This document shows, one piece after another, positions 7,431 to 23,655 of a stretch of DNA of 33,286 bases (position 1 is the stretch's first letter; each line of letters begins with the position of its first letter). A program made the position numbers and the translations under genes. The notes beneath the pieces were generated by a model, which was not told where the DNA came from, ran no database searches, and saw nothing but the letters and a program-made list of their open reading frames with translations. The stretch is from Lachnospiraceae bacterium (GTDB lineage Bacteria; Bacillota; Clostridia; Lachnospirales; Lachnospiraceae), in assembly GCA_009787745.1 (NCBI GenBank), contig WQST01000004.1:1-33286 (forward strand). Direction: 5' to 3'.

Positions 7431-8276
7431 TTAAGCAAGGGCTTTAATCTCATTTGAGTTTACCATAAATGTTGTTTTGCTTTCCAATCTATATTTTCCG
7501 ATTAAATCATCTACTCTTACGTTTTGATGAACAATTCCATGAATATCATTTAAAAGCTCAGTATAATTATCGGATTGAAAAATATTTCTACCAATAGATA
7601 TACCCTTTGCTCCGCAATCCATAGCATTGCTTATCATCGTTAATAATGATTCTGTATCCATCTGCTGCCCACCTGCGATTATTACCGGTATTTGACAACT
7701 TTCAATTACCTCTGCAAATCCTGATTTTGAATTACAATAATTCACTTTAACCATATCAGCACCAAGTTCATCCATAACCCGAACTGCATGTTTTATATAT
7801 TTAATATCCCATTCATTATCAATTTTATCACCTCTTACATAAACCATTGCAATTAAAGGCATTCCTGCATCATTACAATCCTGAATTATATTTGCCGTAT
7901 CTTGTAGCATTTTAGCCTCATATCCATTTCCTAAATTAATATGTATAGATACAGCATCACATCCCATTCGTACTGCTTCTTTAACTGTTGCTGTTTGAAT
8001 TTTTAATAATCCTGATGTGCTTAGTGCTGTGCTGCCCGATAAATGCATAATCAATCCTATATCATTATTGTTTAACAATTGATAATTATTCTTTATCGGT
8101 CCTCCATGCAAAATCATAGAATCTACAATTTTACACTCCATAATCTTTTGTAATGTATCTCCTAATTTCTCTAATCCTTTAATTGGACCTTCTGAGAATC
8201 CATGATCTAAGGGTAAAATAATTGCTCTTTCATGCCCTCTGAAAATACGGCTCATTCGTTTTTCTTTACCATTCAT
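7431..8276 (-). CDS. 2-amino-3,7-dideoxy-D-threo-hept-6-ulosonate synthase-like class I aldolase (MJ0400 / GriI family)
   Basis: MSRIFRGHERAIILPLDHGFSEGPIKGLE...MGCDAVSIHINLGNGYEAKML...PLIAMVYVRGDKI...GADMVKVNYC...PVIIAGGQ...GAKGISIGRNIFQ; RBS aggagg before ATG. Confidence 0.85.
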   Translation of the reverse strand: MNGKEKRMSRIFRGHERAIILPLDHGFSEGPIKGLEKLGDTLQKIMECKIVDSMILHGGPIKNNYQLLNNNDIGLIMHLSGSTALSTSGLLKIQTATVKEAVRMGCDAVSIHINLGNGYEAKMLQDTANIIQDCNDAGMPLIAMVYVRGDKIDNEWDIKYIKHAVRVMDELGADMVKVNYCNSKSGFAEVIESCQIPVIIAGGQQMDTESLLTMISNAMDCGAKGISIGRNIFQSDNYTELLNDIHGIVHQNVRVDDLIGKYRLESKTTFMVNSNEIKALA

Positions 8277-8287
8277 TTGTTATCCTC

Positions 8288-9055
8288 CTAATTAGTTATC
8301 TTCAGCAAATATTGTATATTTTTATACAATATATTATCCATATCACCATCATTACATGATAGCTGTTTTATATTCACTAAACCACATATCGGCTTATATA
8401 ATGGAAATTCACTTCCAAATATCAGCTTTGTACTGCCACATTTTTTTAGTGCTTCTTCTATTCCCGCGTAACTGCCTTGAGAAGTTTCCAGAAAAACATT
8501 GTCAAATTTCGCCGCATATTCTATCGCGTCCACATCTGACGGACCAAATCCCATGTGTCCAATAATAAATTTCGTCTTGGGAAAAAGTTTGGCTAAAGCT
8601 CCCATTTTTTTAGTAGAAGCACCTGGGGAGTATAAAGTATGGCTATAAAAAGGCACTTCCAATTGCCCGCATAGATCTGCCAAATCTAATACCGTTTGAG
8701 ATGCTAATGAAAAACCATGTATTAGAGGAGCCAATTTCAATCCGGAAAATCCTCTCTTTATCCCGCTTTCAAATTCTAATAAAGCTTCTTCTCTTTTTAA
8801 AGGATTTACACAATAAAAACCATAGAACTTTCCCGGTTCCTTCCTTATTATATTTTCAACAATATCATTGGGAATATATTCACCGTCCGGCTTTTCTTCT
8901 CCGGTAATATATTTTGTCATCCTTTTTACATTAACCATTCCTCCCGGCACCAAAACTGCTTTGTCTATACCTGCCAGCTTCATGTCATTATTTAATTCTT
9001 CAATCGTACCATAATTACTCTTTCCAATATGCGCATGTCCATCAATTATCATCAC
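8288..9055 (-). CDS. Amidohydrolase-superfamily (amidohydrolase_2) metal-dependent hydrolase
   Basis: IIDGHAHIG (HxH), PFYSHTLYSPG, KFIIGHMGFG, LIFGSEFP motifs. Confidence 0.85.
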   Translation of the reverse strand: MMIIDGHAHIGKSNYGTIEELNNDMKLAGIDKAVLVPGGMVNVKRMTKYITGEEKPDGEYIPNDIVENIIRKEPGKFYGFYCVNPLKREEALLEFESGIKRGFSGLKLAPLIHGFSLASQTVLDLADLCGQLEVPFYSHTLYSPGASTKKMGALAKLFPKTKFIIGHMGFGPSDVDAIEYAAKFDNVFLETSQGSYAGIEEALKKCGSTKLIFGSEFPLYKPICGLVNIKQLSCNDGDMDNILYKNIQYLLKITN

Positions 9056-10397
9056 TTTCCTCCTTTCCGTTAATATAGTTTACACGTCTGACTTTTTTCC
9101 CATCACAAGGTATTTTATCAACAATTTTAATCTGATTAGGCATCCCGCACCTATATTCAAGCTGACTGGAGATAATTTCTTCAAGCCCATCTCTATAAAT
9201 ACAGTTTGAAGCTAATTCGATAACAACCTCAGCCATATCTTCCCTTACATTAATAAAATAATTATCTCCCACCTCTTTTATATTCATTAGCATTTCCTCA
9301 ATATAAATAGGCGCATATTCTTTTCCATCAATTATTATCTGATCAATTTTTCTTCCTCTTAAATATAGCTTCTTTAATGGAATTCCACATTCACATCTAA
9401 AATGTTCAATAAATCCAATGTCCTGTGTTCGATATCGAACCAAAGGTGTCCCCTCCTTAAGAAGCGTTGTGACTACTATTTCGCCAATTTCGCCATCTTC
9501 CAACGTCTCACCTGTGTCCGGATTAATTATTTCCAGATAAACATGGGAATCCGGAATATGATACCCATCTTTTTTGCCGCATTCAATTCCCAAGGCTCCG
9601 CACTCTAAGGAACCATAGTAAAATCTTGCATCCGCATTCCATTTTGATTCTATTCTATTCCTAAATTTATTTGAACACCCTTCACCGGTAAGCCATATCT
9701 GCTCTACTAAAATATCTTCTTTCATATTAAATCCGCAATTTTCAGCTGCTTTCATTAATTCTATTACATATGAAGGTGAAGAAATTAAAACAGTACATTT
9801 AAATTCTTTCATTAATTCTATGGCTTTCGTTGGGTCGGAGTATGCCCCTCCCTTGCCAACCGGTAGGACGACAGCTTGATACCCTATTTGAGCAACTCGC
9901 TGAAAGGCTTGCCCCGCAGAACTCATTTCATATGGCAATGCAACCGCAACCACATCCGTTGCATTTAAATAAAATAGCTTTCCCCATTGAGGATATAAAT
10001 CACTGCCATACAAGTCATTGATAGTATACATAATTGATATACTTTCACCTCCGGATGTACCGGTAGATGTATGTACATGAAGAATCTCTTCTATAGGTAC
10101 ACATAGCAATCCATCTTTTTTTTTCCTTAACATTTCTTTGGAAAATAATGGTATGCGTTGAAATATATCCCATGTAAATTCTTGTTCAACATTATATCCT
10201 ACCTGATTTAATAGTCCATTATAAAAAGAATTTTTTTCATACAAATAATCCAATAGGTTTTTTAATGCGTCTTTTTGATAGCTTTTTAGTTTTATCGGTT
10301 CTACAGCCGTTATATCTCTCAATTCACTTGCATAATTCTTTAAAAAATGAAAAGAGCGACGACCTTGGGTGCATACATATTCAATTATTTCTCGCAT
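9042..10397 (-). CDS. Phenylacetate-CoA ligase (PaaK)-like adenylate-forming enzyme
   Basis: HTSTGTSGGESISIMYT P-loop, FYYGSLECGALGIEC, PLVRYRTQDIG, CECGIPLKKLYLRGRKIDQIII. Confidence 0.88.
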   Translation of the reverse strand: MREIIEYVCTQGRRSFHFLKNYASELRDITAVEPIKLKSYQKDALKNLLDYLYEKNSFYNGLLNQVGYNVEQEFTWDIFQRIPLFSKEMLRKKKDGLLCVPIEEILHVHTSTGTSGGESISIMYTINDLYGSDLYPQWGKLFYLNATDVVAVALPYEMSSAGQAFQRVAQIGYQAVVLPVGKGGAYSDPTKAIELMKEFKCTVLISSPSYVIELMKAAENCGFNMKEDILVEQIWLTGEGCSNKFRNRIESKWNADARFYYGSLECGALGIECGKKDGYHIPDSHVYLEIINPDTGETLEDGEIGEIVVTTLLKEGTPLVRYRTQDIGFIEHFRCECGIPLKKLYLRGRKIDQIIIDGKEYAPIYIEEMLMNIKEVGDNYFINVREDMAEVVIELASNCIYRDGLEEIISSQLEYRCGMPNQIKIVDKIPCDGKKVRRVNYINGKEESDDN

Positions 10398-10409
10398 TAT
10401 GTGTTTCTC

Positions 10410-11540
10410 CTACTTTTCAATAATTGTTTCATCAATTGCTACTCCCAGATGCCGTCCTTCTTTCATCATGCATCCTAATACAACATCTCCTTTAGTAAGT
10501 AAAACACTATTTTTCACTTCTCCTTTGCTACTGATTATTCTTATATGCCAATCATCTTGCACTATTACATTTGTGGGTTTTCCATTTTTAGAAATTGTTT
10601 TAATTAATAACATCGGACGCTTTTCCATCTTAATCCGGCCAACACTTACAGCTCTTGCTCTGCCTTTTGAGTTAATCACCATAACCTCATCTCCCGATTG
10701 GAGCTCTGATAAATATCTATATTTATTATCCGGACATAAAATATACGAATGAATTGCACCTGCATTTACCCGGAAGGGTCGTAAATCCATATATGGTAAA
10801 TAATGATTTTCAGAACTTACTAAAATACCTCCTGAAGATGTGGATCCTAAAATCATCCCTTCGTCATTATCCAATTTACTAATCGTATCAATACATACCC
10901 GATCGCCCATTCCTATGTGTTTAATTTCTTCCACCTTAAGTTCTTCTATCTCCATAGTCATATTTATCAAATTATCTATCTTCTTCTTCAATTGATTTAA
11001 TTCTTCAATATCAGATGTTTTAATAAGAACAGCTTGACTTCCCATTTCCATAGTCATTGTCGCAATCCATCCATCTTCACTATTAGAAATTATCTTACAT
11101 ATTGTATTCTTATATTCCTGAGAATAAGCTAATATTAATTCAAGGGGGATATTAGTGACTGATTGGAATTGAATAACAATTGTTTTATATGATGGACTTA
11201 ATTCAATTGCACGCTCCATGCTTTTTTTATCATCAATTGTAATAAATATTCCTTTTTCAATTGTTCCGACATCATCAATTAATTTTTCATCATTGCCATC
11301 TATTAATCCCAATATTCTTCTGTCACTATTTTCTCGTGTATACTTTTTCAACCGTTCTTTATTCTCTTTATTTATTTTTATCATAGTAATAATATTTCTT
11401 GATACTTTTTCCATCAATGAAAGTTGTTTTTCATTAATAAGGACACCATTGTATCCTACATTTACCGCATAATTTAGCAGCTTTTGCCCTTCCTTATCCT
11501 GTAAATCCGAAATATCTAACCATAATTGCTTTTTTTCCAT
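10410..11540 (-). CDS. 3-dehydroquinate synthase II family (archaeal MJ1249 type / GriH-like)
   Basis: GMGDRVCIDTISKLDNDEGMILGSTSSGGILVSSENHYLPYMDLRPFRVNAGAIHSYILCPDNKYRYLSELQSGDEVMVINSKGRARAVSVGRIKMEKRPMLLI...GRHLGVAIDETIIEK; likely start MEKKQLWLDI at 11540 with RBS ggagag. Confidence 0.9.
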   Translation of the reverse strand: MEKKQLWLDISDLQDKEGQKLLNYAVNVGYNGVLINEKQLSLMEKVSRNIITMIKINKENKERLKKYTRENSDRRILGLIDGNDEKLIDDVGTIEKGIFITIDDKKSMERAIELSPSYKTIVIQFQSVTNIPLELILAYSQEYKNTICKIISNSEDGWIATMTMEMGSQAVLIKTSDIEELNQLKKKIDNLINMTMEIEELKVEEIKHIGMGDRVCIDTISKLDNDEGMILGSTSSGGILVSSENHYLPYMDLRPFRVNAGAIHSYILCPDNKYRYLSELQSGDEVMVINSKGRARAVSVGRIKMEKRPMLLIKTISKNGKPTNVIVQDDWHIRIISSKGEVKNSVLLTKGDVVLGCMMKEGRHLGVAIDETIIEK

Positions 11541-11541
11541 G

Positions 11542-12762
11542 CTAATCGCTCTCCTTTTCATTTGCATTTTTGATGTAATAATTTGCTTTCCTTAATTTTG
11601 TAATTTTTAATAATTCATTTATTGGTTCTATTTGATGTTTAGAAACATATTTAACTTCATTTGAAATGGGTAGGTCAATTTCTTTGCATTTAACTATATT
11701 CATATATTCTTCTTGTTCTACAATGATTGTTAATATCCCTCCTTGAAATATCAATCTAAAGTATTTAGGATTCAATTTCTCATTTCCATAGATTTGGTTT
11801 TGAATATCAAGCATTGAAATGCATTTTTCTCTATTGCATATGGCATCAGCGAATCTCCCATGGTGAATGAGCATTGGCATTTGATTTCCGCATTGGCATT
11901 TTTCTTGTTTGATTTCTACAATATCCTCTGTTTGATATCTAATCAGCGGAAATGCTTCTTTATTCAGTTGTGTTACCGCCAACAATCCTTTTCCGGTATT
12001 TATTATTGCCTTCCGATCATCGATCTTAACGATCTCAAGATAATAATCAGAAGATATGTGCAAATTGCCATAAGCGCAGGATACGGCAATATTTGCTGTC
12101 TCTGTCATCCCATAGAAATTAAAAACTTTTGCTTCCCATAATTTTTCTATCTGCATTTTCCTGCCATCACATAACATTTCACCTGCCACCAATATCATTC
12201 TGACGGAAAAATCTTTTCTGCTGTCGAATCCAAGATGCTGTGCCACATCTGCTAAGACTACTGCTTCTGAGGGATTACAAACCAATATGGTTGCGTTAAT
12301 CTTTTTCATAATATTTATTACTCTTTGATATGGCGTAACCATTGAACCTCTGCTGACAGGAATAATTGTGGCACCATCATCAATTAGCATTCCAGTAAAT
12401 ATATGAGCCGGGACAGACAGTGCATAAGGAAATCGAATCAGGGCAATATCTTTCTTTGTGATTTTTATGTCTTTATCTCTAAGTTGCCTAGCCGCTTCCT
12501 GCATATCTTTACGTGAATACCATACCGATACCGATTCACCTGTCGTACCAGATGACTCATGATATTGTTGAATATCATCTATTTCAACTGATAATAAATC
12601 AAATGGATCACTTTTCTTTAGATCTTTTTTTTCTGTAAAATTAATTTTTTGAAACTCTTCAATATTCGAAATTGTTACCGGAATTTTTCTCTGTTTATAA
12701 AATTTACTTCTTTCTGCCTGAGCCAAAGCAAAATTTATTTTGCTTAATAATTTTTCTTCCAT
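11542..12762 (-). CDS. PaaK-like adenylate-forming enzyme (second, shorter)
   Basis: YHESSGTTGESVSVWYSRKD, FNFYGMTETANIAVSC, FPLIRYQTEDIVEI, CQCGNQMP; ATG at 12760-12762 with RBS aaggag. Confidence 0.88.
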   Translation of the reverse strand: MEEKLLSKINFALAQAERSKFYKQRKIPVTISNIEEFQKINFTEKKDLKKSDPFDLLSVEIDDIQQYHESSGTTGESVSVWYSRKDMQEAARQLRDKDIKITKKDIALIRFPYALSVPAHIFTGMLIDDGATIIPVSRGSMVTPYQRVINIMKKINATILVCNPSEAVVLADVAQHLGFDSRKDFSVRMILVAGEMLCDGRKMQIEKLWEAKVFNFYGMTETANIAVSCAYGNLHISSDYYLEIVKIDDRKAIINTGKGLLAVTQLNKEAFPLIRYQTEDIVEIKQEKCQCGNQMPMLIHHGRFADAICNREKCISMLDIQNQIYGNEKLNPKYFRLIFQGGILTIIVEQEEYMNIVKCKEIDLPISNEVKYVSKHQIEPINELLKITKLRKANYYIKNANEKESD

Positions 12763-12794
12763 CACATCTCCTTGGATTTTACTTTTACTACGAA

Positions 12795-13619
12795 CTAATT
12801 ATTACAAAGCATTTTATGAATCTTCTTATGAGGTATTTGACCTGACCAAAACTCTTTCTCTTTTTGGTATTCATCAAGATCTATATAATAAACCAATAAT
12901 CCGGCATCATCTTTTGGCAACCCAGCTAATATATAATCATCTCTTGAACTTTTAATTAAATCCTCACCACATTCTACATATCTTAAAATGGACGTCTGCC
13001 CCGAAAAATTAATTCTTGATACACTGCTTGTCCCCGTTACACATATCATAAATAAAAAGCAAGGAATGTCCATAACTCTTGATAATGCTATCTGTTCAAG
13101 AATAAAATCATATTCATAAGGAATTTGGGTTAAGCATATAATAAAATCTGTTTCAGACGCGGCTAATTTTTCACATAAAGCCAATGAATTTAGATCATTT
13201 CCAATTAATACTCCAAATTTACCGAATTCTGTTTCAAAAATATCAATTTTTCTTCCGGGTTTCATAAAATGCATTTCAAACTCATTAAGACATATTTTTC
13301 GATATTTCCCTAAAATATTTCCCTTACGATTAATAATGATTGCTGAATTATAATATGAGTAATTATCCTTTTCAAAAATTCCACCAATAACCATAGAATT
13401 TTCAGATTTTGCCAAATCTACCAAAAAATGAACTGTATCCCCCATCAAATCTTCAGCTGTTTCATCCAAATTAATTAAATTTATACTGGCTGAAAACAAT
13501 TCTGGTAAAATAATTAAATCAAGCGGCTTCTTAGCTTCACTAATTTTTTCATTTAAATCCATAAATAATAATTGTTTTGATTCAAATGTTACATCCGTTT
13601 GCAGCAAACATACATTCAT
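12795..13619 (-). CDS. Nitrilase-superfamily (C-N hydrolase fold) protein lacking the catalytic cysteine
   Basis: LIILPELF (Glu), GKYRKICL (Lys), GKFGVLIGNDLNS where canonical members have ICYD; Cys replaced by Gly. Confidence 0.8.
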   Translation of the reverse strand: MNVCLLQTDVTFESKQLLFMDLNEKISEAKKPLDLIILPELFSASINLINLDETAEDLMGDTVHFLVDLAKSENSMVIGGIFEKDNYSYYNSAIIINRKGNILGKYRKICLNEFEMHFMKPGRKIDIFETEFGKFGVLIGNDLNSLALCEKLAASETDFIICLTQIPYEYDFILEQIALSRVMDIPCFLFMICVTGTSSVSRINFSGQTSILRYVECGEDLIKSSRDDYILAGLPKDDAGLLVYYIDLDEYQKEKEFWSGQIPHKKIHKMLCNN

Positions 13620-13632
13620 CTCATTTATCCTT

Positions 13633-14496
13633 TCAATCGTTCTTAAAAATCAAATATTTCGTGACATTTTCTTCCGTGCAATTATTATATTTTTCACTCA
13701 TCCTGGTCATATATTTCGTGAGTGCATATATGAATTCATCACTTTTTTCTGATAATATGTCCCCAAAGGTACCTCTTGATAATATGCTTTGAATCATATC
13801 TTCCGCATTTTTATAATCTATTTGAAAAATTAATATCTCTTGATGAACCAATTCCATATTATTTTGTAATGCTGCATTGATAATTTCTTTTTCTCCCAAG
13901 GTGTCATTCCATACATTCATAACTTTTTCAGGTACTTTCGCTTCTTGGTAATGGCAATTTTTATTTGAAATTTTTATAATCGCTTTAAAAAGTTTATTAC
14001 CTGTAAATGTCACGGATTCTTTGCTTACCTTTACATTTTGCAATGTATAACCAGGGATAGAACATATAAAATAACCTTTTGATTTTAGTATCTTTGATAT
14101 GCCTATAAAAGCATCTTCATTTAACCATTGAATACCATAATTACAAGTTATCAGATCGGCTTGATAATTTAAAGTTCCTAAATCCCGACCGTCAATTTGG
14201 ATAAAATCGGCTCTATCAATCTCTTTTGCTTGTGCTTCTTTAAGCATTATTTGCGATATATCAACTCCTAAAAATCTTGCATTCTTAAATGTATCGCTTA
14301 ATTGTTTTGTCAGTATACCGGTACCGCAACATAAATCAAGAATATTGATATCCATTTCCTCTGATTTTATATTAAGAAAATTATATAAGAAATTGATAAT
14401 CCCATTCCCTATTTTCTGATAGTAATTTACATTACTGTGTGTTTCATAATCTTCGCCTAAACTATCAAATATCGCTTTATTATGTATTTGGCTCAT
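13633..14496 (-). CDS. Class I SAM-dependent methyltransferase (BioC/UbiE-like)
   Basis: NILDLCCGTGILTKQLSDTFKNARFLGVDIS, ADLITCNYGIQWL. Confidence 0.85.
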   Translation of the reverse strand: MSQIHNKAIFDSLGEDYETHSNVNYYQKIGNGIINFLYNFLNIKSEEMDINILDLCCGTGILTKQLSDTFKNARFLGVDISQIMLKEAQAKEIDRADFIQIDGRDLGTLNYQADLITCNYGIQWLNEDAFIGISKILKSKGYFICSIPGYTLQNVKVSKESVTFTGNKLFKAIIKISNKNCHYQEAKVPEKVMNVWNDTLGEKEIINAALQNNMELVHQEILIFQIDYKNAEDMIQSILSRGTFGDILSEKSDEFIYALTKYMTRMSEKYNNCTEENVTKYLIFKND

Positions 14497-14497
14497 G

Positions 14498-15640
14498 TTA
14501 TTTCTCCTTTGCAGTTAAACGGTTTCCGGCTACAGCCATAACAAATAAGATGATAATAAAAATTGAAATCATCCATATTTCATTTGAAATAAGCAAACTT
14601 TCCCCATTAAGAACATTATCCATTGCTATTTTCAGCCAATATGTAGGTGTTAATTTGGACAAAACCAACATATTCTCAGGCATATATAAGATAGACCAGT
14701 ATAATCCACCCAACATAGCTAAAACATTAATCAAAATATTTAATAATGCCAAAAACATATTTTTAGTTTTAGAAATAGATGACATAAAAGTGCCCAGCAT
14801 AAACCCAGTCAACCCTGATCCAAGAAGAACCAAAATGATATCAATAACCATTCCAGCATTCAAAGATTTTACCGCTAATAGCATAAATACTAAAATAACT
14901 AACAATTGTATTATATAGATCCCTAATTCACTCAGCAGTAATGATATTACATATTTTCCGTAGCTATATTTTGTCGTTGTAATTCTAGTTAATATCCCAT
15001 TCCTTTTATCTTGATAAAGCTTCATTCCAAAATAACAATTATAGTAAATCATGAAAAATATAATAAATCCCCAGAATACTTTAATCGCACTTGAAATACC
15101 TCTTTCTTCTTGATTGTCCTGCGGTATTATTAAATTTACTTTTACGGCATTTTCATTTATATCTTTCACAAATGACTGTAACTCAGTATCTGTATCAGTA
15201 AGATCACTTGCAATTACATACTGATGAAGATAGCTATTTATATCATAATCGACAAAAATATAAATGGAACTTTCTGTTAAACTCACTGACGTAATTTCAA
15301 TTGAATCATTATTACGTATACTTTCATATAAGCCCATTGGCAAAATGACTGCATAATCAATTTTATTCTTTATTAACTCATGTTGTATTTCCGAACCATC
15401 CAAAATCTTAATCGAGTATCGCTCACTAAGATACCGAATCATTTCATTACTAAATTCCGTTTTATCTTGATCCCAAATACCAACTCTACATTTTGAAACA
15501 AAAGAATTATCTGTTTGTTCTTTATCATCAGAGAAAATAATTATATTAAATAATATAATGGCAATGATGGGCAATAAAAACAAGATGAGTCTAAAAATGC
15601 CATTTAAATTTCTTTTCATATTTAGTTTAAGAATCATCAT
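14498..15640 (-). CDS. ABC-2 type transporter permease
   Basis: N-terminal TM, large extracytoplasmic domain, C-terminal TM cluster; next to an ABC ATPase and a second permease. Confidence 0.8.
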   Translation of the reverse strand: MMILKLNMKRNLNGIFRLILFLLPIIAIILFNIIIFSDDKEQTDNSFVSKCRVGIWDQDKTEFSNEMIRYLSERYSIKILDGSEIQHELIKNKIDYAVILPMGLYESIRNNDSIEITSVSLTESSIYIFVDYDINSYLHQYVIASDLTDTDTELQSFVKDINENAVKVNLIIPQDNQEERGISSAIKVFWGFIIFFMIYYNCYFGMKLYQDKRNGILTRITTTKYSYGKYVISLLLSELGIYIIQLLVILVFMLLAVKSLNAGMVIDIILVLLGSGLTGFMLGTFMSSISKTKNMFLALLNILINVLAMLGGLYWSILYMPENMLVLSKLTPTYWLKIAMDNVLNGESLLISNEIWMISIFIIILFVMAVAGNRLTAKEK

Positions 15641-16746
15641 TTGGCAAGCCTCCTTTTATTCGTTAAAACTGCAACAATAATCAAAATCGATGCCCCCGCC
15701 GCCATTACTTGAATATATTCAATAAACGATACAGAATTTGTTTCATATATTGTACTAAATAATACATTCTGGCATACTGCATTTGGCAGAAGCTGATTAA
15801 TCAATCTACCTGCCCCAAAATGATCCAAATCTATGATTACAAATCCTCCGGCTAAAAAAGTTGAACCTAAAATTATGATATTTGCTAATGTATAAGCAAT
15901 GCCATAGTCTTTAACCACTGAAATCAAAGCAAGCCCAAATAAATTTGAAAAGATAATAAAGATAAAAAGAATTGCTATTAGCCTAAAATAATTACTTCCT
16001 AAAAATACGCCATATACCATTTTATAAAAAATAAGCAATACCGAAATTTGCATGGCTACCAAAAGTATAGATGCCAATAAGACGCCTATATATATCGGTA
16101 GTAACCTGTTCGTTACTGAAAGTAGTCTTTCCTGTTTTCGTCCTATTAGGGTATCACTAATTATTTTAATTGCATACAGCGATCCAAATAAGCAAACTAA
16201 AACTGTGAGTGTTACACCATAATAATCAAATGCCCTCGGAATATGGTTATTAGATAACCCTCTTGCTTGTATATAAGTTTCCAGTAATCGATTTCCAATA
16301 ACATCATAATCATTGTAATTCACATTTTGATGTGTAAAAATATTTTGATTCCTTGTGAATTGTGTGAGAATAAATGTTATAATCGCCACTCCTTGCAGTT
16401 CTGGATCTTCAACTACAAAATTAATCTCATCAGAATCGTACCATATATATCCATGTATCTCGCCTAATAACAATGCATTGTCTGCCTCTGAATGATTATT
16501 CAAAATTATAGTTTCAGTAATATTACTTACTGCTTCTGCTGCAAATACGCTTTTTAAAGATTCCATATACATATCACCTTCTATTAGCGCTACTTTATAC
16601 TTTTCTGTTTTCGGTGCTTGAAAATCACCTTGTAGTGCATTGCCAACAATAAGAGCCAATATTGCCGGAAAAAAAACCATCAACAACATACTTGTATAAT
16701 CTCTTATTTCCCTTTTTAATGTATATTTAAATGTAGATATTATCAC
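15637..16746 (-). CDS. ABC-2 type transporter permease
   Basis: Same topology as the neighbouring permease; 4-nt overlap with it. Confidence 0.8.
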   Translation of the reverse strand: MIISTFKYTLKREIRDYTSMLLMVFFPAILALIVGNALQGDFQAPKTEKYKVALIEGDMYMESLKSVFAAEAVSNITETIILNNHSEADNALLLGEIHGYIWYDSDEINFVVEDPELQGVAIITFILTQFTRNQNIFTHQNVNYNDYDVIGNRLLETYIQARGLSNNHIPRAFDYYGVTLTVLVCLFGSLYAIKIISDTLIGRKQERLLSVTNRLLPIYIGVLLASILLVAMQISVLLIFYKMVYGVFLGSNYFRLIAILFIFIIFSNLFGLALISVVKDYGIAYTLANIIILGSTFLAGGFVIIDLDHFGAGRLINQLLPNAVCQNVLFSTIYETNSVSFIEYIQVMAAGASILIIVAVLTNKRRLAK

Positions 16747-16756
16747 TGATTAACTC

Positions 16757-17710
16757 CTAATCTCTTAATGTTTTGCCTGTTAAATGTAAAAAGATATCTT
16801 CCAGATTATTTCTTTTCATATTAATTGATAAAAATTTATAGTTTGTTCTTTCAATAACATCCAATATATGCTTTAATGAAAATGTATTCGCCTGCGCTTC
16901 AATTTCCAATACTTTTTCGTTTATACTGCACTTTACAACACCGATAATTTCATTCAATTGTTTACAAAGCTCATTTTGAATTTTTTTATCCAACATGATA
17001 AGGTATGTTTCATTTAAATTATATTTTAGTAGAAGTTCATTAGTATTACCGCTTTCAACGACTTTTCCTTTATCAATAATCAAAAGACGGTTACACAGGC
17101 TTTGGATTTCCTCCATATAATGAGAAGTATATATAATTGTTGCTCCCTGTTGGTTTAGTTTCCGTATCGATTCCATGATATGGTTTCTCGATTGTGCATC
17201 AATACCAACAGTTGGTTCATCCAAAATAATTATTTGGGGGCGATGGACAATAGCACAGCCGATATTAAGCCTTCTTTTCATTCCACCTGAAAATGTCTTG
17301 GGAAATTTATTCGCAACATCTGTTAATCCAATAAATTCAAGGGTTTGGTCAACATTATGCTTCCGTGTTTTATTATTAATACCATAAAGGCTTCCAAAAT
17401 ATTCTAAATTTTCTTTGGCAGTCAGATCTTCAAATATAATAATATCTTGTGGAACTAATCCCATATTCCTTTTTATATCTTTTAGATTCTTATCAAAATT
17501 TTTGCCTTCTACTAAAATTTCACCCTTATCTCTGTGAATAATTCCACTTATTATACTAATTGTTGTCGATTTGCCTGCTCCATTTGGGCCTAATAATCCA
17601 AATATATCTTGTTTGTCAATTTTGAAGCTTACATCATCAACCGCCACAGTATTTTGATATTTTTTATGTAAACCTTGAACTTCTAACATTGTTATGCTCA
17701 TTTTATTCAC
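16757..17710 (-). CDS. ABC transporter ATP-binding protein (drug/natural-product export type)
   Basis: GLLGPNGAGKSTT, FSGGMKRRLNIGCA, IIILDEPTVGIDAQ, YTSHYMEE. Confidence 0.93.
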   Translation of the reverse strand: MNKMSITMLEVQGLHKKYQNTVAVDDVSFKIDKQDIFGLLGPNGAGKSTTISIISGIIHRDKGEILVEGKNFDKNLKDIKRNMGLVPQDIIIFEDLTAKENLEYFGSLYGINNKTRKHNVDQTLEFIGLTDVANKFPKTFSGGMKRRLNIGCAIVHRPQIIILDEPTVGIDAQSRNHIMESIRKLNQQGATIIYTSHYMEEIQSLCNRLLIIDKGKVVESGNTNELLLKYNLNETYLIMLDKKIQNELCKQLNEIIGVVKCSINEKVLEIEAQANTFSLKHILDVIERTNYKFLSINMKRNNLEDIFLHLTGKTLRD

Positions 17711-17751: not shown

Positions 17752-18708
17752 TTAAATAATATAATTATTCCACATATATTTGCATCTTTTTTCTTTACAA
17801 AAAGTGTTTTCCCACATACCAAAATCCATTTCATCACTTATAATTTCTAATATTTCTTGTATACTTTTTCCTTCTAGAATATAATCGATGGTTTTAGCAT
17901 AAACCGCGGTTATAGCCGCCATGAACATTGGATCTAAATCACGACCTATCGTTTTAATCGATTCTACCCCTGTTTTCATTACCTCATCCAATAGGCATAA
18001 AGAACAATCTTCATTTACATCTAAAATGGATATTTCTTCCCCGCTTGACTGGATAATAAACTTTGCCCTGCATGGTATTCCCGTTTGAAGTCTTTCATCA
18101 TTTACATGCAAAAGACCACAAGTACTTTCTAAAAATGAACAGCCAAAATGTCCGAAAATTTCTACCTTTATTTTTGTATCGGTAACAATTTCTGTGATTT
18201 CTTCTAAGCTAAATGTATGTGGAAGAACCACCTTTTCAATATGCATTTCTTCGAGAAATTTAATGGTTTTTTTATTAAGACAGGTAAGAAATGTACTGGC
18301 AGTAACCGGGAAATTTATACCGGCTGCTCTTAATCGTATAAGATTACCTAAATCCCCTACAATTACTCTATCAACACCTGCATCAATTCCCATTTTTATA
18401 TATTCAATATATTTCTTATCACCATCATTATTGCCGGAAAAATTACAATCATTAAAATGAGGAAGGTTTGCCACCAATTCTACTTTTACACCATTATCAT
18501 GGGCGATTCTGACTGCTGTTTCAAAGTCTTGATACGGCATAATTGTTTTCCGATTATCAAAGCAAGACTTCTTGGCTCTTCCTGAAAAAGTCATTGAATG
18601 CCCATAATCAAACTCAAAACCGCCATATAATTCTCCTGCACCTGATTCTATCTGTAATTCTGTTGAATATATAGAATTAATCGGTGCTTTAATTAGTAAT
18701 TTCTTCAT
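17752..18708 (-). CDS. Peptidase U32-family protein (UbiU-like)
   Basis: ESGAGELYGGF, VDRVIVGDLGNLI, VEIFGHFGCSFLESTCGLL...GIPCRAKF...DCSLCLLDEVMKTGVESIKTIGRDLDPMFMAAITAVYAKTID. Confidence 0.85.
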   Translation of the reverse strand: MKKLLIKAPINSIYSTELQIESGAGELYGGFEFDYGHSMTFSGRAKKSCFDNRKTIMPYQDFETAVRIAHDNGVKVELVANLPHFNDCNFSGNNDGDKKYIEYIKMGIDAGVDRVIVGDLGNLIRLRAAGINFPVTASTFLTCLNKKTIKFLEEMHIEKVVLPHTFSLEEITEIVTDTKIKVEIFGHFGCSFLESTCGLLHVNDERLQTGIPCRAKFIIQSSGEEISILDVNEDCSLCLLDEVMKTGVESIKTIGRDLDPMFMAAITAVYAKTIDYILEGKSIQEILEIISDEMDFGMWENTFCKEKRCKYMWNNYII

Positions 18709-19606
18709 GATATGTCCTCCTAAAGGTATTTATGATATGTTCTAAATCAGACTTTTCAAGATCATAATCATGTATGACAAAAGTTATGTTTTCGTCTGCA
18801 TCTATTAACCATTCTTCTTGCATTTCTATCCGCCGATATAAAACATTGCCTAGCAAATTAAAATCTAATAATTTTTTATCCAATTGATTATGGCATGGTT
18901 GATAATCTATTCCATTACTATATTGCGACATTGTAATATCTATACTTTCATGGCAATGGTTTACGCAATTGCCAATCTCAAGATTTTTATGTTTAGCATA
19001 AGCACATTTTCTGGCAAAAGCTACCGCACAATTAGCTAAATGACAATTTATTTTCCATCCCCACTTCTGAATACGAGCTAATCCTCTCATTGCTTCCGGA
19101 AGAAGGCTTGTTTCGATACCTGTTATACCATAATTTTTCAAAAATTTATACTTAGAGTAGTCTGCCATGGTATTAGAAATCATATCATCACTAAATTCTT
19201 CATTTTCAAGTAACAGAAAATGCCAAGGGGTATCTTCCAAAGTTCTTGATAAGCTGCGGCCGACAAAAACCTGTGAAGGTAGAATTTTTCTATTATATGC
19301 TTCATATAAAACCCCGAAATCATTGATAACCAATTGATAATCTAAGTGATTATTTACCAGCGTTTGCAGCAAATCCATAATTTTTTCGAAATGAATATCT
19401 ACTACTTTAGGGGTAATTAATTTAGGCTGAAGACCAGCATTAATTATTGTGTTAAATATACTTATAATCTCTTTACTTGACGGCATATGAAAAATACAGC
19501 CTTCATCTCCTACGGATATAATATCTATTTCATATTTAAAATAATCTTCGGTTATATATTTATACAATAATTTATAGTTTCTAACGTGTAATTCTAATTT
19601 TGCCAT
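18689..19606 (-). CDS. U32-related, UbiV-like protein (putative Fe-S protein)
   Basis: GDEGC near position 37 and KC-x12-C-x3-C (RKCAYAKHKNLEIGNCVNHC); overlaps the U32 gene 17752..18708. Confidence 0.65.
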   Translation of the reverse strand: MAKLELHVRNYKLLYKYITEDYFKYEIDIISVGDEGCIFHMPSSKEIISIFNTIINAGLQPKLITPKVVDIHFEKIMDLLQTLVNNHLDYQLVINDFGVLYEAYNRKILPSQVFVGRSLSRTLEDTPWHFLLLENEEFSDDMISNTMADYSKYKFLKNYGITGIETSLLPEAMRGLARIQKWGWKINCHLANCAVAFARKCAYAKHKNLEIGNCVNHCHESIDITMSQYSNGIDYQPCHNQLDKKLLDFNLLGNVLYRRIEMQEEWLIDADENITFVIHDYDLEKSDLEHIINTFRRTYHEEITN

Positions 19607-19619
19607 ATTATCTTATCCT

Positions 19620-20438
19620 TTATATTAATTCTACATAGTTCTTAGCTTTTTCGATATCTGCCGATTTTAGATCAATTACATTAATATATTCATCATTATC
19701 CAGCTCAAGTATTTTTCCAAATGGGCCAGCAATAATGCTCCCCCCTTCAAAGCGTCCTTTCAAATAACTCACTTCTCCTACTCCGTTTACACCGATAATA
19801 AAAATACCATATTCATAAGCTTTTGCCAAAACCATTGACTTCCATTTATTAATAATAAAACTTTTATTTATTTCTTCATTTAAAGGACTCGGAAGCAAGC
19901 AAGGAGCAAAAATAATCTCTACTCCTAAGGCTACCATTTGCTTTATCATGTCTTCATAAAACATATCTATTCCCATCAATATGCCAACCCGTCCAATATC
20001 CAAATCAAATACTTTTTTTTCTACTCCTTTGACAATAAATTCTGCTTCGCGGTAAAAGATATAGTTTCTCTCCTGCGTTCCGATTATTTTTCCTTTTCTA
20101 TTTAATATAAAGCCTATGTTACGATATCTTCTATCTTTCCCTTCATTATCAACAGAGCCTGTAACCCCACCAATAATATAACAGTTATACTTTTCTGCCA
20201 ATTCTGATAATTTTTTTATTGCTTTATTTCCGCTAAAAGCTTCCGGAATACTTGTAAAATTATAGGAACTTCCGGTATAAAATTCTTCCGGCATTACAAT
20301 CACATCTGTTTGCGGATTTGCTTCCATTAGCTGTGTTATCTTTTCTTCAACACTCTTTATATTCTCATATCGATTTTTAGTGCCAAATTTTGAACCTAAT
20401 ATTTTAAGCTGAATTACTCCTACTTTTATATTTTCCAT
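19620..20438 (-). CDS. Nitrilase-superfamily protein lacking catalytic Cys (and apparently Lys)
   Basis: MENIKVGVIQLKILGS...VIVMPEEFYTGSSYN...GTQERNYIF...GRVGILMGIDMFYED; ATG at 20438 with RBS aaggag; frame stays open upstream to a TTG at 20594. Confidence 0.75.
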   Translation of the reverse strand: MENIKVGVIQLKILGSKFGTKNRYENIKSVEEKITQLMEANPQTDVIVMPEEFYTGSSYNFTSIPEAFSGNKAIKKLSELAEKYNCYIIGGVTGSVDNEGKDRRYRNIGFILNRKGKIIGTQERNYIFYREAEFIVKGVEKKVFDLDIGRVGILMGIDMFYEDMIKQMVALGVEIIFAPCLLPSPLNEEINKSFIINKWKSMVLAKAYEYGIFIIGVNGVGEVSYLKGRFEGGSIIAGPFGKILELDNDEYINVIDLKSADIEKAKNYVELI

Positions 20439-20616
20439 TAAACACCTATCTCCTTGTTTGCCGATTATTTCATCAAGGTAGTTGTCAAATTGCACTGCTT
20501 CTATAAACTTTCTCTCCATTTGTAGTAAAATAGTATCGTCACACACAATCTCACCAACAAACGGAGACGAAAATTTATGGTTGTTATGTTCCAAGCTAGT
20601 TTAACAATCACCTAGG

Positions 20617-20772
20617 TTACTTCATCCTTTGTAACCGCGCCGCCATATTTTCCGGCTCTTTGGGCTGATTATAAAACACCCAGCATGCGGCTGATATCTC
20701 GTTTTGCGCAACTTTGCGAGCTAAAGACGCTGCTCCTTTGAGCAATGGATTGGATTTATCTTGGTTCTTCAT
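20617..20772 (-). CDS. agrD: AgrD-like cyclic autoinducer prepeptide (51 aa), not in the supplied ORF track
   Basis: MKNQDKSNPLLKGAASLARKVAQNEISAACWVFYNQPKEPENMAARLQRMK*; overlaps the 3' end of agrB by 17 nt; amphipathic N-terminus, core Cys, and an acidic/proline tail NQPKEPENM typical of AgrD. Confidence 0.88.
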   Translation of the reverse strand: MKNQDKSNPLLKGAASLARKVAQNEISAACWVFYNQPKEPENMAARLQRMK

Positions 20773-21358
20773 AATTCATTACCACCTTTCTTTTTATATG
20801 CTTAGCATATGTCATGCTTCCTGTAACAAACATCATAGATAAAGCTATTGCTAAAAAAATACTGTTTGCGTTTGAGAACATTCCAATTATTACAATAAGT
20901 GACATCACCGATACCAATATTCTGCTTTTTATTCTGAGTACTTTTTGCTGTCCTTGGTAAATAGGTTTATTTTCATGTTCAACTGGTGCTAAATTATAAA
21001 TAATACAAACCGATATTAATGAAGCTAAGATAGCAGTAGCTGAATAAATTTGAATTGGCATTAATGATATAATAATCAACATCGAATTAAAAATAATTGC
21101 AAATGTTATGATACAGCTCCAGTGTTGTTTCGCATGATGCCCCCCGGCAAAACGCCTTAACAGAGCAAAGCAAACCATAAAGACAACACCCTCTATAACC
21201 AATCCAAAAAAAGTTGAAAGCATCAAGCAAAGCAAAATATGTATCGTAGTTGAAATGATATTCTCAAACGCATATGTATAAATATCTTCTTCTTCAACCT
21301 TAGCTACATTACCTGATATTAATACTAATGTTGCTTGTTTTGCCAGTCTATGAATCAT
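20756..21358 (-). CDS. agrB: AgrB-like accessory gene regulator / autoinducer-processing peptidase
   Basis: RRFAGGHHAKQHWSC contains the H-x6-C catalytic pair; multiple TM segments. Confidence 0.92.
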   Translation of the reverse strand: MIHRLAKQATLVLISGNVAKVEEEDIYTYAFENIISTTIHILLCLMLSTFFGLVIEGVVFMVCFALLRRFAGGHHAKQHWSCIITFAIIFNSMLIIISLMPIQIYSATAILASLISVCIIYNLAPVEHENKPIYQGQQKVLRIKSRILVSVMSLIVIIGMFSNANSIFLAIALSMMFVTGSMTYAKHIKRKVVMNYEEPR

Positions 21359-21413
21359 AGCATTAAACCTCCTACTGTAACGATATCATTTATCAAATAG
21401 TTGTACAATACCT

Positions 21414-21441
21414 ATTGCACGAATAGTATCTCTCATTGCAC
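21414..21441. promoter_or_regulatory. Direct repeat with 21-bp period upstream of agrB (candidate LytTR/AgrA site)
   Basis: ATTGCAC at 21414-21420 and 21435-21441 (GTGCAAT on the coding strand), in the agrC-agrB gap. Confidence 0.4.
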
Positions 21442-21568
21442 CAAAAAATAAAACTACTTATTTTTATTGAAATATTTAATTATATTTTAAGAGAAACACA
21501 AAATAATTTATGAAATCTTTGTCGAATATTTAAGTTGAATAAAGAAAAATAGAATAAAAGAATTAGTA

Positions 21569-22879
21569 TTAAAGCGGAATTAAAATATGTAACAAGAACA
21601 TGTCTTCGTCATAATCATAACTCAATTTCCCCCCCAATCTCAAGCAGCTTTCCTCCATACTCTTAAGCCCGATGCCATGATGAAGCATATCCTGCTTCAG
21701 GGTTTCTATTCTCCCCTCCCGTAGCTTAGGCTTCGCACCAATCGTATTTTTTACTTCGCATAGCAACACATTTTCAGATATGCGGAGCTCTAAGTCAATA
21801 AATAAATGTATTAAATCACCGGCGCGCCGGCAAGCTTCAATAGCGTTTTCCAATGCGTTTCCAACAATCGAGCAAAGCTCAAGTACCGGAATGGGTAACT
21901 CCGGCAGAATTTGAATCAACCAATCACATTGAATATTTTCCTGTTCGGCTACATTACGCTTCGTTGTCAACATAACATCAAGCATGGGATTCCCTGTATC
22001 CAGCATTAACTGAGTATTATTATGATATTGCACTAATTCATTAATGCGAAGTGAAAGTTCTTCATATTGACCCTGTTCTATAAAAAATTGAAACGCATTG
22101 ACATGATGTCTAAAGTCATGAGCCAATTGTTGAATATGTGTACGGCTTTCTGCTAATTTCAAACTATGTTCACGATGCGCAGTTAGCTGAGCCTCAGTAA
22201 CCGCCAGCTTTTCCTTATCTTCCGATCTTCGGAGTAACCCTTCAATAATGGAAAAAATAATGACATTTGAAAAAAGCAAACTAAGAATGCTAAAAATAAG
22301 CAGAAAAGTTATCGGCTGACCTTCACTTGTAGAAGTGTAAAAGATTTGCACCGAAATAAAGATTGATAGTAAAGGAAGAATACATAAAATCATCCATTGT
22401 TTAGGTGGTAAATTATTAGTTTTTCCTTTTCTGAAACGGATCAATATATTAATGAATAAAAAAAGCAGAAGATTCGCAACGACGTTTACTTGATATCTAA
22501 AACTGTTTACTCCAAGCGTGTCATTGATTTCAATGCCTTGGAACAAAACAATCACAAACGCGCCCAGAGATTCAAAGACAACACTAAAAAGAATTTTCAA
22601 TAAGCCGATAATTCCATACCAATATAATTTTGCTTTACAAAATGAAAAAGAAATTAACACCGATATAAAGATGGTTTTAGCTACTATCATTATCAATATA
22701 CCATTCATGTATATAGAAACTATAGCTGATATTAAGACAGCTAAAGCACAAACTAAAAAGCCGGTTTTTTTAGATATGTTCCGCTTTTGCTTTAAAAATC
22801 CCTCCGCCATCATCTTCATAATAAAAACTTCAAAGCAAGCAATACAAATTTCAAAAAATACCCAGAGCATATCGAACAT
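21569..22879 (-). CDS. agrC: AgrC-like sensor histidine kinase (GHKL ATPase)
   Basis: N-terminal multi-TM sensor, QQLAHDFRHHVNAFQFF H-box, VGNALENAIEAC N-box. Confidence 0.88.
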   Translation of the reverse strand: MFDMLWVFFEICIACFEVFIMKMMAEGFLKQKRNISKKTGFLVCALAVLISAIVSIYMNGILIMIVAKTIFISVLISFSFCKAKLYWYGIIGLLKILFSVVFESLGAFVIVLFQGIEINDTLGVNSFRYQVNVVANLLLFLFINILIRFRKGKTNNLPPKQWMILCILPLLSIFISVQIFYTSTSEGQPITFLLIFSILSLLFSNVIIFSIIEGLLRRSEDKEKLAVTEAQLTAHREHSLKLAESRTHIQQLAHDFRHHVNAFQFFIEQGQYEELSLRINELVQYHNNTQLMLDTGNPMLDVMLTTKRNVAEQENIQCDWLIQILPELPIPVLELCSIVGNALENAIEACRRAGDLIHLFIDLELRISENVLLCEVKNTIGAKPKLREGRIETLKQDMLHHGIGLKSMEESCLRLGGKLSYDYDEDMFLLHILIPL

Positions 22880-22890
22880 ATATGATCCCC

Positions 22891-23595
22891 TTATTTTCTA
22901 TATCTTCTATATGTATCCTTTAAGTTGTCTCTAAATTTAGGGCCGATAGATAATGATAAATTATTGGTAAATGTAACACAGTCGTCCGTGATAATCCATA
23001 CCCACGCCATATTGATTAAATAAGAACGGTGACATTGGACGAAACCATATTGTGACAACTTTTTAAGCTCCTCGGATAATTTTCCCCAATATTCGCATTT
23101 CAAAGTTCTTGTGAAAGCGCATATTATATGGAGGTTACTCTCCATATAAAGTACATCTTGTAATTGAATTGTTCCAACTTGTCCGCCTTTTAATTTCACC
23201 TCATAAGGTGTTAAATTCTTGCGGTTAAATAAATTAATTAATTTTTCTAAAATATTATAAATTGCCTTTTCTCTGATAGGTTTTACAATAAAACCGGCCG
23301 CCATAACATCAAAACCACGCGGCATATAATCAGCTAAATTCGTTACAAAAACTATTTGCACATTCGTATCTACAACGCGAATATGCTCAGCTGCTTCGAT
23401 ACCGCACATTTGCGGCATCGAGATATCAAGAAAAATAATATTAAAGCTTTCTTTAACCGCATCTTCCAAAAGATTTACCGCAGAAGTATATGTAGAAATA
23501 AAAAAACCTAATTTATTAATAATGGAGTACTCTTCAATTTCCTTACGGATTATACATAATTGCTGTTGATCATCATCGCATATCGCAATACGCAT
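22891..23595 (-). CDS. agrA: AgrA-like LytTR response regulator
   Basis: MRIAICDDDQQQL, IIFLDISMPQMCGIEAA receiver; C-terminal LytTR domain (LYMESNLHIICAFT...FVQCHRSYLIN); start MRIAICD at 23595 with RBS aaggagg. Confidence 0.88.
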   Translation of the reverse strand: MRIAICDDDQQQLCIIRKEIEEYSIINKLGFFISTYTSAVNLLEDAVKESFNIIFLDISMPQMCGIEAAEHIRVVDTNVQIVFVTNLADYMPRGFDVMAAGFIVKPIREKAIYNILEKLINLFNRKNLTPYEVKLKGGQVGTIQLQDVLYMESNLHIICAFTRTLKCEYWGKLSEELKKLSQYGFVQCHRSYLINMAWVWIITDDCVTFTNNLSLSIGPKFRDNLKDTYRRYRK

Positions 23596-23655
23596 AAAAT
23601 TCCTCCTTAACCCCTCGATTACACTATAAAGCACAAGAATGTCACTTTTTTAAAC

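Follow-up and report, generated by a model that had tools for sequence, protein, structure and literature searches.

How do anaerobes, which make oxygenated aromatic compounds yet cannot use oxygenases, place oxygen on the rings of their secondary metabolites? The route is largely open, and a stretch of 33,286 nucleotides from a Lachnospiraceae bacterium (contig WQST01000004.1 of assembly GCA_009787745.1), which we call the window, poses the question within a single operon. It is a single contig (C4, 33 kb) from a genome that is 83% complete and assembled in 310 contigs, and along its minus strand runs a series of 13 genes, from 20594 to 7431, whose neighbours overlap or are separated by 41 bp or less. 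Five of them correspond to the closoxazole enzymes ClxA to ClxE, and two others form an adjacent pair of U32-type proteins resembling UbiU-UbiV, an enzyme that needs no O2 to hydroxylate a benzene ring (PMC10470549). That the core is a closoxazole-type benzoxazole cluster we regard as very likely; that the whole is such a cluster fitted with an oxygen-independent hydroxylation module is a reading we favour with more reserve. The candidate is supported by sequence, and the identity of its product lies beyond what sequence can tell. What is new here is the setting, in which a U32 pair shares one operon with a known five-gene core. U32 oxidases have so far been known for ubiquinone and RNA and, if the reading is true, the operon would represent a means, so far unreported, by which anaerobes tailor their aromatic natural products.

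A closoxazole-type core

In the closoxazole pathway, ClxE and ClxB make 3-amino-4-hydroxybenzoic acid (3,4-AHBA), ClxA joins two units, ClxD forms the benzoxazole, and a third aryl acid is attached by ClxC (PMC12118335). The aldolase step combines aspartate semialdehyde with dihydroxyacetone phosphate to give the AHBA precursor. The same five enzyme classes make up clxA-E of Clostridium cavendishii and pfxA-E of Pyxidicoccus fallax, whose ligases and amidohydrolase have been reconstituted in vitro (PMC12118335), and they recur in the window in the order of clx, provided that the clx letters follow gene order. An earlier sequence-only reading had found ligase, 3-dehydroquinate synthase II (DHQS-II), ligase, amidohydrolase and aldolase in succession at 8288-12762, and had named as precedent the 3,4-AHBA-derived closoxazoles reported from an anaerobic Clostridium. 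The order is correct, on the minus strand, with the aldolase (7431-8276) just outside that interval, and the precedent is real, the five genes matching ClxA-E (PMC12118335). Every gene named in that reading is a long, intact open reading frame (ORF). The operon, with the agr genes that adjoin it upstream, is given below in order of transcription, with matches to family models in brackets.

22891-23634, minus strand: agrA-like LytTR response regulator (Response_reg 5.3e-16; LytTR 3.9e-11)
21569-22879, minus strand: agrC-like sensor kinase (HATPase_c_5 1.3e-19)
20756-21358, minus strand: agrB, membrane protease that processes the autoinducing peptide (AgrB 5.5e-38)
20617-20772, minus strand: AgrD-like autoinducing-peptide precursor, an ORF of 51 amino acids containing SAACWVFYNQPKEPEN (an AgrD-like ORF also lies beside agrB in L016, the Anaerosporobacter faecicola locus)
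19620-20594, minus strand: nit1, nitrilase-fold protein without the catalytic Cys (CN_hydrolase 3.4e-25; likely start ATG at about 20438)
18689-19606, minus strand: UbiV-like partner, C37...C201-x12-C214-x3-C218 (aligned UbiV Fe-S cysteines; profile-profile match to UbiV)
17752-18708, minus strand: UbiU-like U32 oxidase with [4Fe-4S]-type cysteines C190, C197, C213 and C235/C238 (Peptidase_U32 2.8e-26; UbiU model 4.3e-17)
16757-17710, minus strand: ABC exporter ATPase, DrrA-like (ABC_tran 3.6e-33; DrrA 3.6e-83)
15637-16746, minus strand: ABC-2 permease, SagH-like (ABC2_membrane_3 1.5e-17; SagH model 1.3e-36)
14498-15640, minus strand: ABC-2 permease (ABC2_membrane_3 2.8e-27)
13633-14496, minus strand: S-adenosylmethionine (SAM) methyltransferase, BioC/Methyltransf_25-like (Methyltransf_25 2.7e-15; BioC 9.5e-24)
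12795-13619, minus strand: nit2, nitrilase-fold (CN_hydrolase) protein with the catalytic Cys replaced by Gly (CN_hydrolase 4.3e-25)
11542-12765, minus strand: ClxA-like PaaK/BagE-FevW-like AMP (adenosine monophosphate) ligase, putative 3,4-AHBA joining (AMP-binding 4.6e-12; BagE_FevW 3.6e-57; PDB 9s3l, E 5e-93)
10410-11567, minus strand: ClxB-like 3,4-AHBA synthase of the DHQS-II family (DHQS 2.6e-101; BagC/FevH AHBA-synthase model 1.3e-68)
9042-10397, minus strand: ClxC-like AMP ligase of the PaaK type, proposed to attach the third aryl acid (AMP-binding 7.8e-9; PaaK-related models with E as low as 7e-59)
8288-9055, minus strand: ClxD-like amidohydrolase, putative benzoxazole-forming cyclase (Amidohydro_2 1.6e-18; likely start ATG at 9052)
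7431-8276, minus strand: ClxE-like aldolase of the DhnA type, related to 2-amino-3,7-dideoxy-D-threo-hept-6-ulosonate (ADTH) synthase (DeoC 2.2e-47; BagB/FevI 9e-51; score exceeding the cut-off of subfamily model NF005556)

The PDB entry 9s3l is the best match of the ClxA-like ligase in that database, with 41% identity over 391 residues. Its residues P120, Y218, Y219, T222, N226, D281, H301 and K393 sit at the ClxA numbers of PMC12519233 and, because the numbering agrees, we infer that 9s3l is the crystallised ClxA. The window's ligase is identical to it at P120, Y219, T222, N226, D281, H301 and K393, and departs from it at Y218 (here Phe) and K140 (here Arg). In ClxA, N226 touches 3,4-AHBA at its para-hydroxyl, and the catalytic lysine K393 extends from the partner subunit to the phosphate (PMC12519233); the conservation of these AHBA and AMP contacts is the best evidence that the window's ligase would activate 3,4-AHBA. 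With the five-gene match, the conserved residues and the identity to 9s3l support the benzoxazole assembly that the sequence-only reading had put forward as a candidate. By homology to enzymes studied elsewhere, ClxE and ClxB would make 3,4-AHBA, which ClxA would adenylate and join to a second unit; ClxD would cyclise the joined product to the benzoxazole, and ClxC would attach a third aryl acid.

The five-gene core itself is of a known and widespread kind, since 34 of the 80 nearest loci returned by a scan of the genome collection with the ClxB alignment hold all five genes. Their commonest order is C-D-A-B-E, and the window's order A-B-C-D-E is found elsewhere among the 80 only in Anaerosporobacter faecicola (L016) and Mobilitalea sibirica (L017). 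ClxC of the window is 62% identical to that of A. faecicola, and its ClxE 56-60% identical to those of both species. Early AHBA matches at L012-L015 were rejected as clx relatives, being other cluster types with clxB and clxE only.

Two better-known families help to place the core. The bagremycin and ferroverdin cluster, like the window, has a DhnA aldolase and an AHBA synthase for 3,4-AHBA and a related ligase, yet the three window proteins compared (with BagB, BagC and BagE only) score far below the NCBIfam cut-offs of the bagremycin/ferroverdin models. In the nataxazole and caboxamycin systems (NatL2, NatAM), an adenylating ligase and a metal-dependent amidohydrolase with an HxH/H/H pattern condense two hydroxy-aminobenzoates (PMC7204872), which bears out the functional part of the comparison with nataxazole drawn by the sequence-only reading; the likeness does not extend to sequence, ClxD being shorter than NatAM and only about 18% similar to it (PMC12118335), with Glu for Asp345. 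The nataxazole type, moreover, uses 3-hydroxyanthranilic acid and the closoxazole type 3,4-AHBA.

Among 48 aligned ClxD-like sequences, the metal-site residues H7, H9, H139, H167 and E216 are kept in 44 to 48 rows. The four histidines correspond, by motif order rather than superposition, to the HxH/His/His pattern of NatAM, whose counterparts are H75, H77, H253 and H290, with Asp345 in the fifth position (PMC7204872). Glu216 occupies the Asp345 position in the window and, since Glu is invariant in all 48 rows, we read it as the mark of a subfamily and not as a loss. An AlphaFold model built from 35 sequences reached a mean predicted local distance difference test score (pLDDT) of 94.4, and the solved structures closest to it belong to Amidohydro_2 enzymes, including ACMSD and the dihydroxybenzoate and carboxyvanillate decarboxylases; the predicted fold fits an aryl-acid enzyme and cannot by itself tell a cyclase from a decarboxylase. 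The putative cyclase role of the window's ClxD thus rests on the published work on ClxD and PfxB.

The neighbouring decarboxylase folds and the Glu at the NatAM Asp position would suit a core whose product stays a linear amide, ester or conjugate of AHBA, with the amidohydrolase acting as a hydrolase or aryl-acid decarboxylase, and the ligases alone do give linear products, the isolated amide being no substrate for PfxB (PMC12118335). We nevertheless hold such an outcome improbable, given that PfxB, only 38% similar to ClxD, forms the benzoxazole in vitro (PMC12118335), that the Glu belongs to the whole subfamily, and that ligases and amidohydrolase stand together in all of the five-gene loci. 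Less credible by far is an archaeal-type shikimate route in which ClxB and ClxE would supply dehydroquinate instead of AHBA. Their top NCBIfam scores, to the DHQS-II and ADTH synthase models, would allow it, but this assignment was dropped: a canonical aroB is encoded separately in the window genome, as it is in that of A. faecicola, and ClxB is therefore superfluous for the shikimate route. Both genes are also embedded with AHBA-type ligases, and the ClxA residue for contact with the para-hydroxyl of AHBA is kept.

Three minor observations touch these core proteins. In M. sibirica, ClxC is divided between two ORFs (L017:11153-12483), which may reflect a decaying cluster or an assembly error. 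In four Dactylosporangium loci (L084, L090, L094 and L095) the AHBA genes and a ligase are accompanied by a ClxD-like amidohydrolase (27-28%). Arg and Val occupy two of the metal-site His positions in four of the aligned ClxD-like rows, and these are probably the same Dactylosporangium loci.

The U32 pair and what it might do

Beyond the published clxA-E set, with which alone the comparison is made, the window holds the U32 pair, a methyltransferase, two nitrilase-fold proteins without the catalytic Cys, an ABC exporter and the agr set. The 13-gene operon is transcribed in the order nit1, UbiV-like, UbiU-like, ABC ATPase, two ABC-2 permeases, methyltransferase, nit2, ClxA, ClxB, ClxC, ClxD and ClxE, and A. 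faecicola has the same 13 genes in the same order (37-72% identity), which argues that the arrangement is not due to chance. As A. faecicola has all 13 and M. sibirica the core only, the extra genes are an extension of the core, retained as one block in two genomes.

The two U32 genes lie side by side with an overlap of 20 bp, and are paired in the same manner in A. faecicola and at L102-L106. The sequence-only reading had counted two U32 proteins and was right in substance: only 17752-18708 has a Pfam U32 match, while the second protein was recognised by profile-profile comparison and its cysteines. The UbiU-like family profile matches Escherichia coli UbiU with a probability of 99.7 (E 2.7e-26), and C190/C197 align with C169/C176 of the E. 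coli protein in a C-x6-C step, the Fe-S set being C190, C197 and C213 with C235 or C238; a PDB search with this protein gave no useful match. For the UbiV-like protein (18689-19606) there was no Pfam match even at E 10, and single-sequence hhalign against UbiV gave no signal, family profiles being required on both sides. So compared, the profile of its family matches that of nine true UbiV proteins with a probability of 93.9 (E 1.6e-7), against 3.2 for an unrelated control. Its C37, C201, C214 and C218 align on C39, C180, C193 and C197 of E. coli UbiV, which hold a [4Fe-4S] cluster (PMC6747719), and the four cysteines are also kept in A. faecicola and five further pairs. A C-terminal Cys pair (C304/C309 in the window) is common to all seven aligned UbiU-like proteins and absent from E. 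coli UbiU.

The resemblance to UbiU-UbiV thus lies in the adjacency of two U32-type genes, in the C-x(n)-C-x12-C-x3-C pattern of the second protein and in the C169/C176 match of the first. The differences lie in low identity (27% and about 20%), in a separate U32-tree clade, in the lack of UbiT, and in the context, which is a biosynthetic operon of an anaerobe and not a quinone pathway. In the U32 tree, which has long branches and several unresolved deep forks, and from which the Rosm_yrrN and Rosm_yrrO rows (one ORF) were disregarded, the window protein and that of A. faecicola form a clade of their own (100/100) outside the UbiU/TrhP/RlhA group; E. coli UbiU groups with TrhP and RlhA, and the window protein did not come out as a UbiU orthologue. 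TrhP and RlhA share with it the U32 domain and Fe-S cysteines, and the literature links their hydroxylation to prephenate; the window protein falls outside both of their clades, and separate TrhP-clade and RlhA-clade genes are present in the same genome. Together with the profile and cysteine matches, its own clade and these separate genes indicate that the pair is UbiU/UbiV-like, and neither UbiU/UbiV proper nor an RNA-hydroxylase copy.

By analogy with UbiU-UbiV, the natural inference is that the pair would hydroxylate AHBA or the benzoxazole independently of O2. It would probably form a heterodimer with one [4Fe-4S] cluster per subunit and act on the aromatic ring before or after assembly, with prephenate as the probable oxygen source; prephenate has been reported as the hydroxyl source, and direct demonstration of U32 chemistry is lacking (PMC11574389). 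The BioC-like enzyme might methylate the product or the new hydroxyl, and the ABC exporter would secrete the product.

When 388 genomes of the class were searched with the UbiV-like alignment, five other pairs came up (L102-L106). L102 brings together, within 18 kb, four PaaK-like ligases, a ClxD-like amidohydrolase (34%), the U32 pair, a chorismate mutase-DAHP (3-deoxy-D-arabino-heptulosonate 7-phosphate) synthase and a protein with a prephenate-dehydratase-like match; it is an independent link, differently arranged, of a U32 pair with ligases and a ClxD-like protein. The pairs at L103-L106 adjoin B12-radical-SAM, carbamoyltransferase or terpene-cyclase-like genes, mostly named by inspection.

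Several findings weigh against a dedicated hydroxylation module. M. sibirica has the core and no U32 genes (its genome gave no match to the UbiV-like protein), so the core does not need them. A search of the phylum found related pairs in ten more genomes, where most of them have no evident cluster around them. In the UbiU-like protein, the spacing of the third and fourth cysteines departs from that in E. coli UbiU, and a structure model of the UbiV-like protein, based on two sequences only, failed (pLDDT 42). Lastly, the 83%-complete genome gave no chorismate mutase when searched. This absence is probably an assembly gap, because a contig end truncates the ORF of its prephenate dehydratase on the side at which, by comparison with A. 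faecicola, a fused mutase would be expected.

Some of these points lend substance to the alternative that the cluster makes plain closoxazole-like benzoxazoles, and that the U32 pair, the nitrilase-fold proteins and the methyltransferase work elsewhere, for instance on RNA, a lipid or a non-AHBA precursor acid, or in self-protection: the extra genes are missing from M. sibirica and from most core loci, related U32 pairs occur with no cluster around them, and the U32 relatives TrhP and RlhA hydroxylate RNA (PMC10470549). Yet the extra genes share a tight operon whose order is identical in A. faecicola, TrhP- and RlhA-type copies are already present in the window genome, and at L102 ligases, a ClxD-like protein and a U32 pair again stand together, in another arrangement. 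We therefore judge this alternative unlikely and prefer a closoxazole-type cluster with an oxygen-independent hydroxylation module.

The U32 pair was dropped as a marker of secondary metabolism only, as the ten genomes mostly lack an evident cluster; it is a broader family, some members of which lie in biosynthetic clusters. Full-text literature searches, which mostly did not cover subscription journals, found the closoxazole papers and no report of a U32 oxidase in a natural-product cluster. A wider proposal, which we hold tentatively and would not rate quite as high as an even chance, is that UbiU/UbiV-type pairs serve the natural-product clusters of anaerobes in general as a module for aromatic hydroxylation without O2, leading here to a closoxazole-like benzoxazole that is hydroxylated, and probably methylated, with its oxygen donated by prephenate. 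U32 chemistry would be far easier to test on a small, soluble aryl substrate from a defined five-gene pathway than on ubiquinone precursors or RNA, and the pair might provide a tool for the oxygen-free hydroxylation of benzoxazole scaffolds.

Accessory proteins, regulation and related loci

The sequence-only reading had expected a more decorated product from two U32, two nitrilase-like, methyltransferase and exporter genes. The methyltransferase (13633-14496) and exporter (14498-17710) are present, and the expectation is reasonable and can be made more specific: O2-independent hydroxylation is what the U32 pair suggests, while the nitrilase-like proteins (12795-13619 and 19620-20594) have the fold without the catalytic Cys, Gly replacing it in both. 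In nit2, VLIGNDL stands opposite the VMICFDW of the archaeal nitrilase 3ivz that contains the catalytic Cys, and nit1 has ILMGIDM where that Cys would be, together with Arg at the catalytic Lys position (by inspection). Neither protein has the Glu-Lys-Cys triad, hydrolysis is unlikely, and neither is to be classed as a hydrolase; a non-hydrolytic role would suit them better. They are paired pseudo-enzymes in one operon, and the Gly is also conserved in nit1 and nit2 of A. faecicola.

A full agr set (agrA, agrC, agrB and the AgrD-like ORF) adjoins the operon upstream, and an agrB (27% identity) and an AgrD-like ORF flank that of A. faecicola. This position and the conserved agrB/agrD linkage suggest control by agr quorum sensing, with the agrBDCA set predicted to switch the operon on. 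Rfam and tRNA scans of the window gave no matches, and promoter and terminator motifs were as numerous in shuffled sequence. Upstream of agrB (21358-21568) lies a GTGCAAT direct repeat with 21-bp spacing, a form frequent among the sites of LytTR regulators, which might weakly suggest a LytTR-type site; it was looked for in the A. faecicola locus and not found.

The same genome holds a second AHBA-type locus at the edge of another contig (L003, G000:C9:1-20000), with a truncated DHQS-II and a DhnA aldolase. Its neighbours, named by inspection, are two DegT-like aminotransferases, two radical-SAM-like proteins, a glycosyltransferase, a PIG-L-like protein, carbamoyltransferase-like proteins, an AMP ligase and another agrB, and it probably makes a different AHBA-derived natural product.

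Elsewhere, the adjacent U32 pairs of the phylum search (L130-L139, in the clade of L106) form a separate, sporadic family in diverse genomes, mostly outside evident biosynthetic clusters. The pairs at L103, L104 and L105, from a genus group that includes Ruminiclostridium sufflavum, have as neighbours several B12-radical-SAM-like proteins, a protein resembling carbamoyltransferases (L103, L104) or one resembling squalene-hopene cyclase (L105), and are further candidate clusters with predicted O2-independent hydroxylation.

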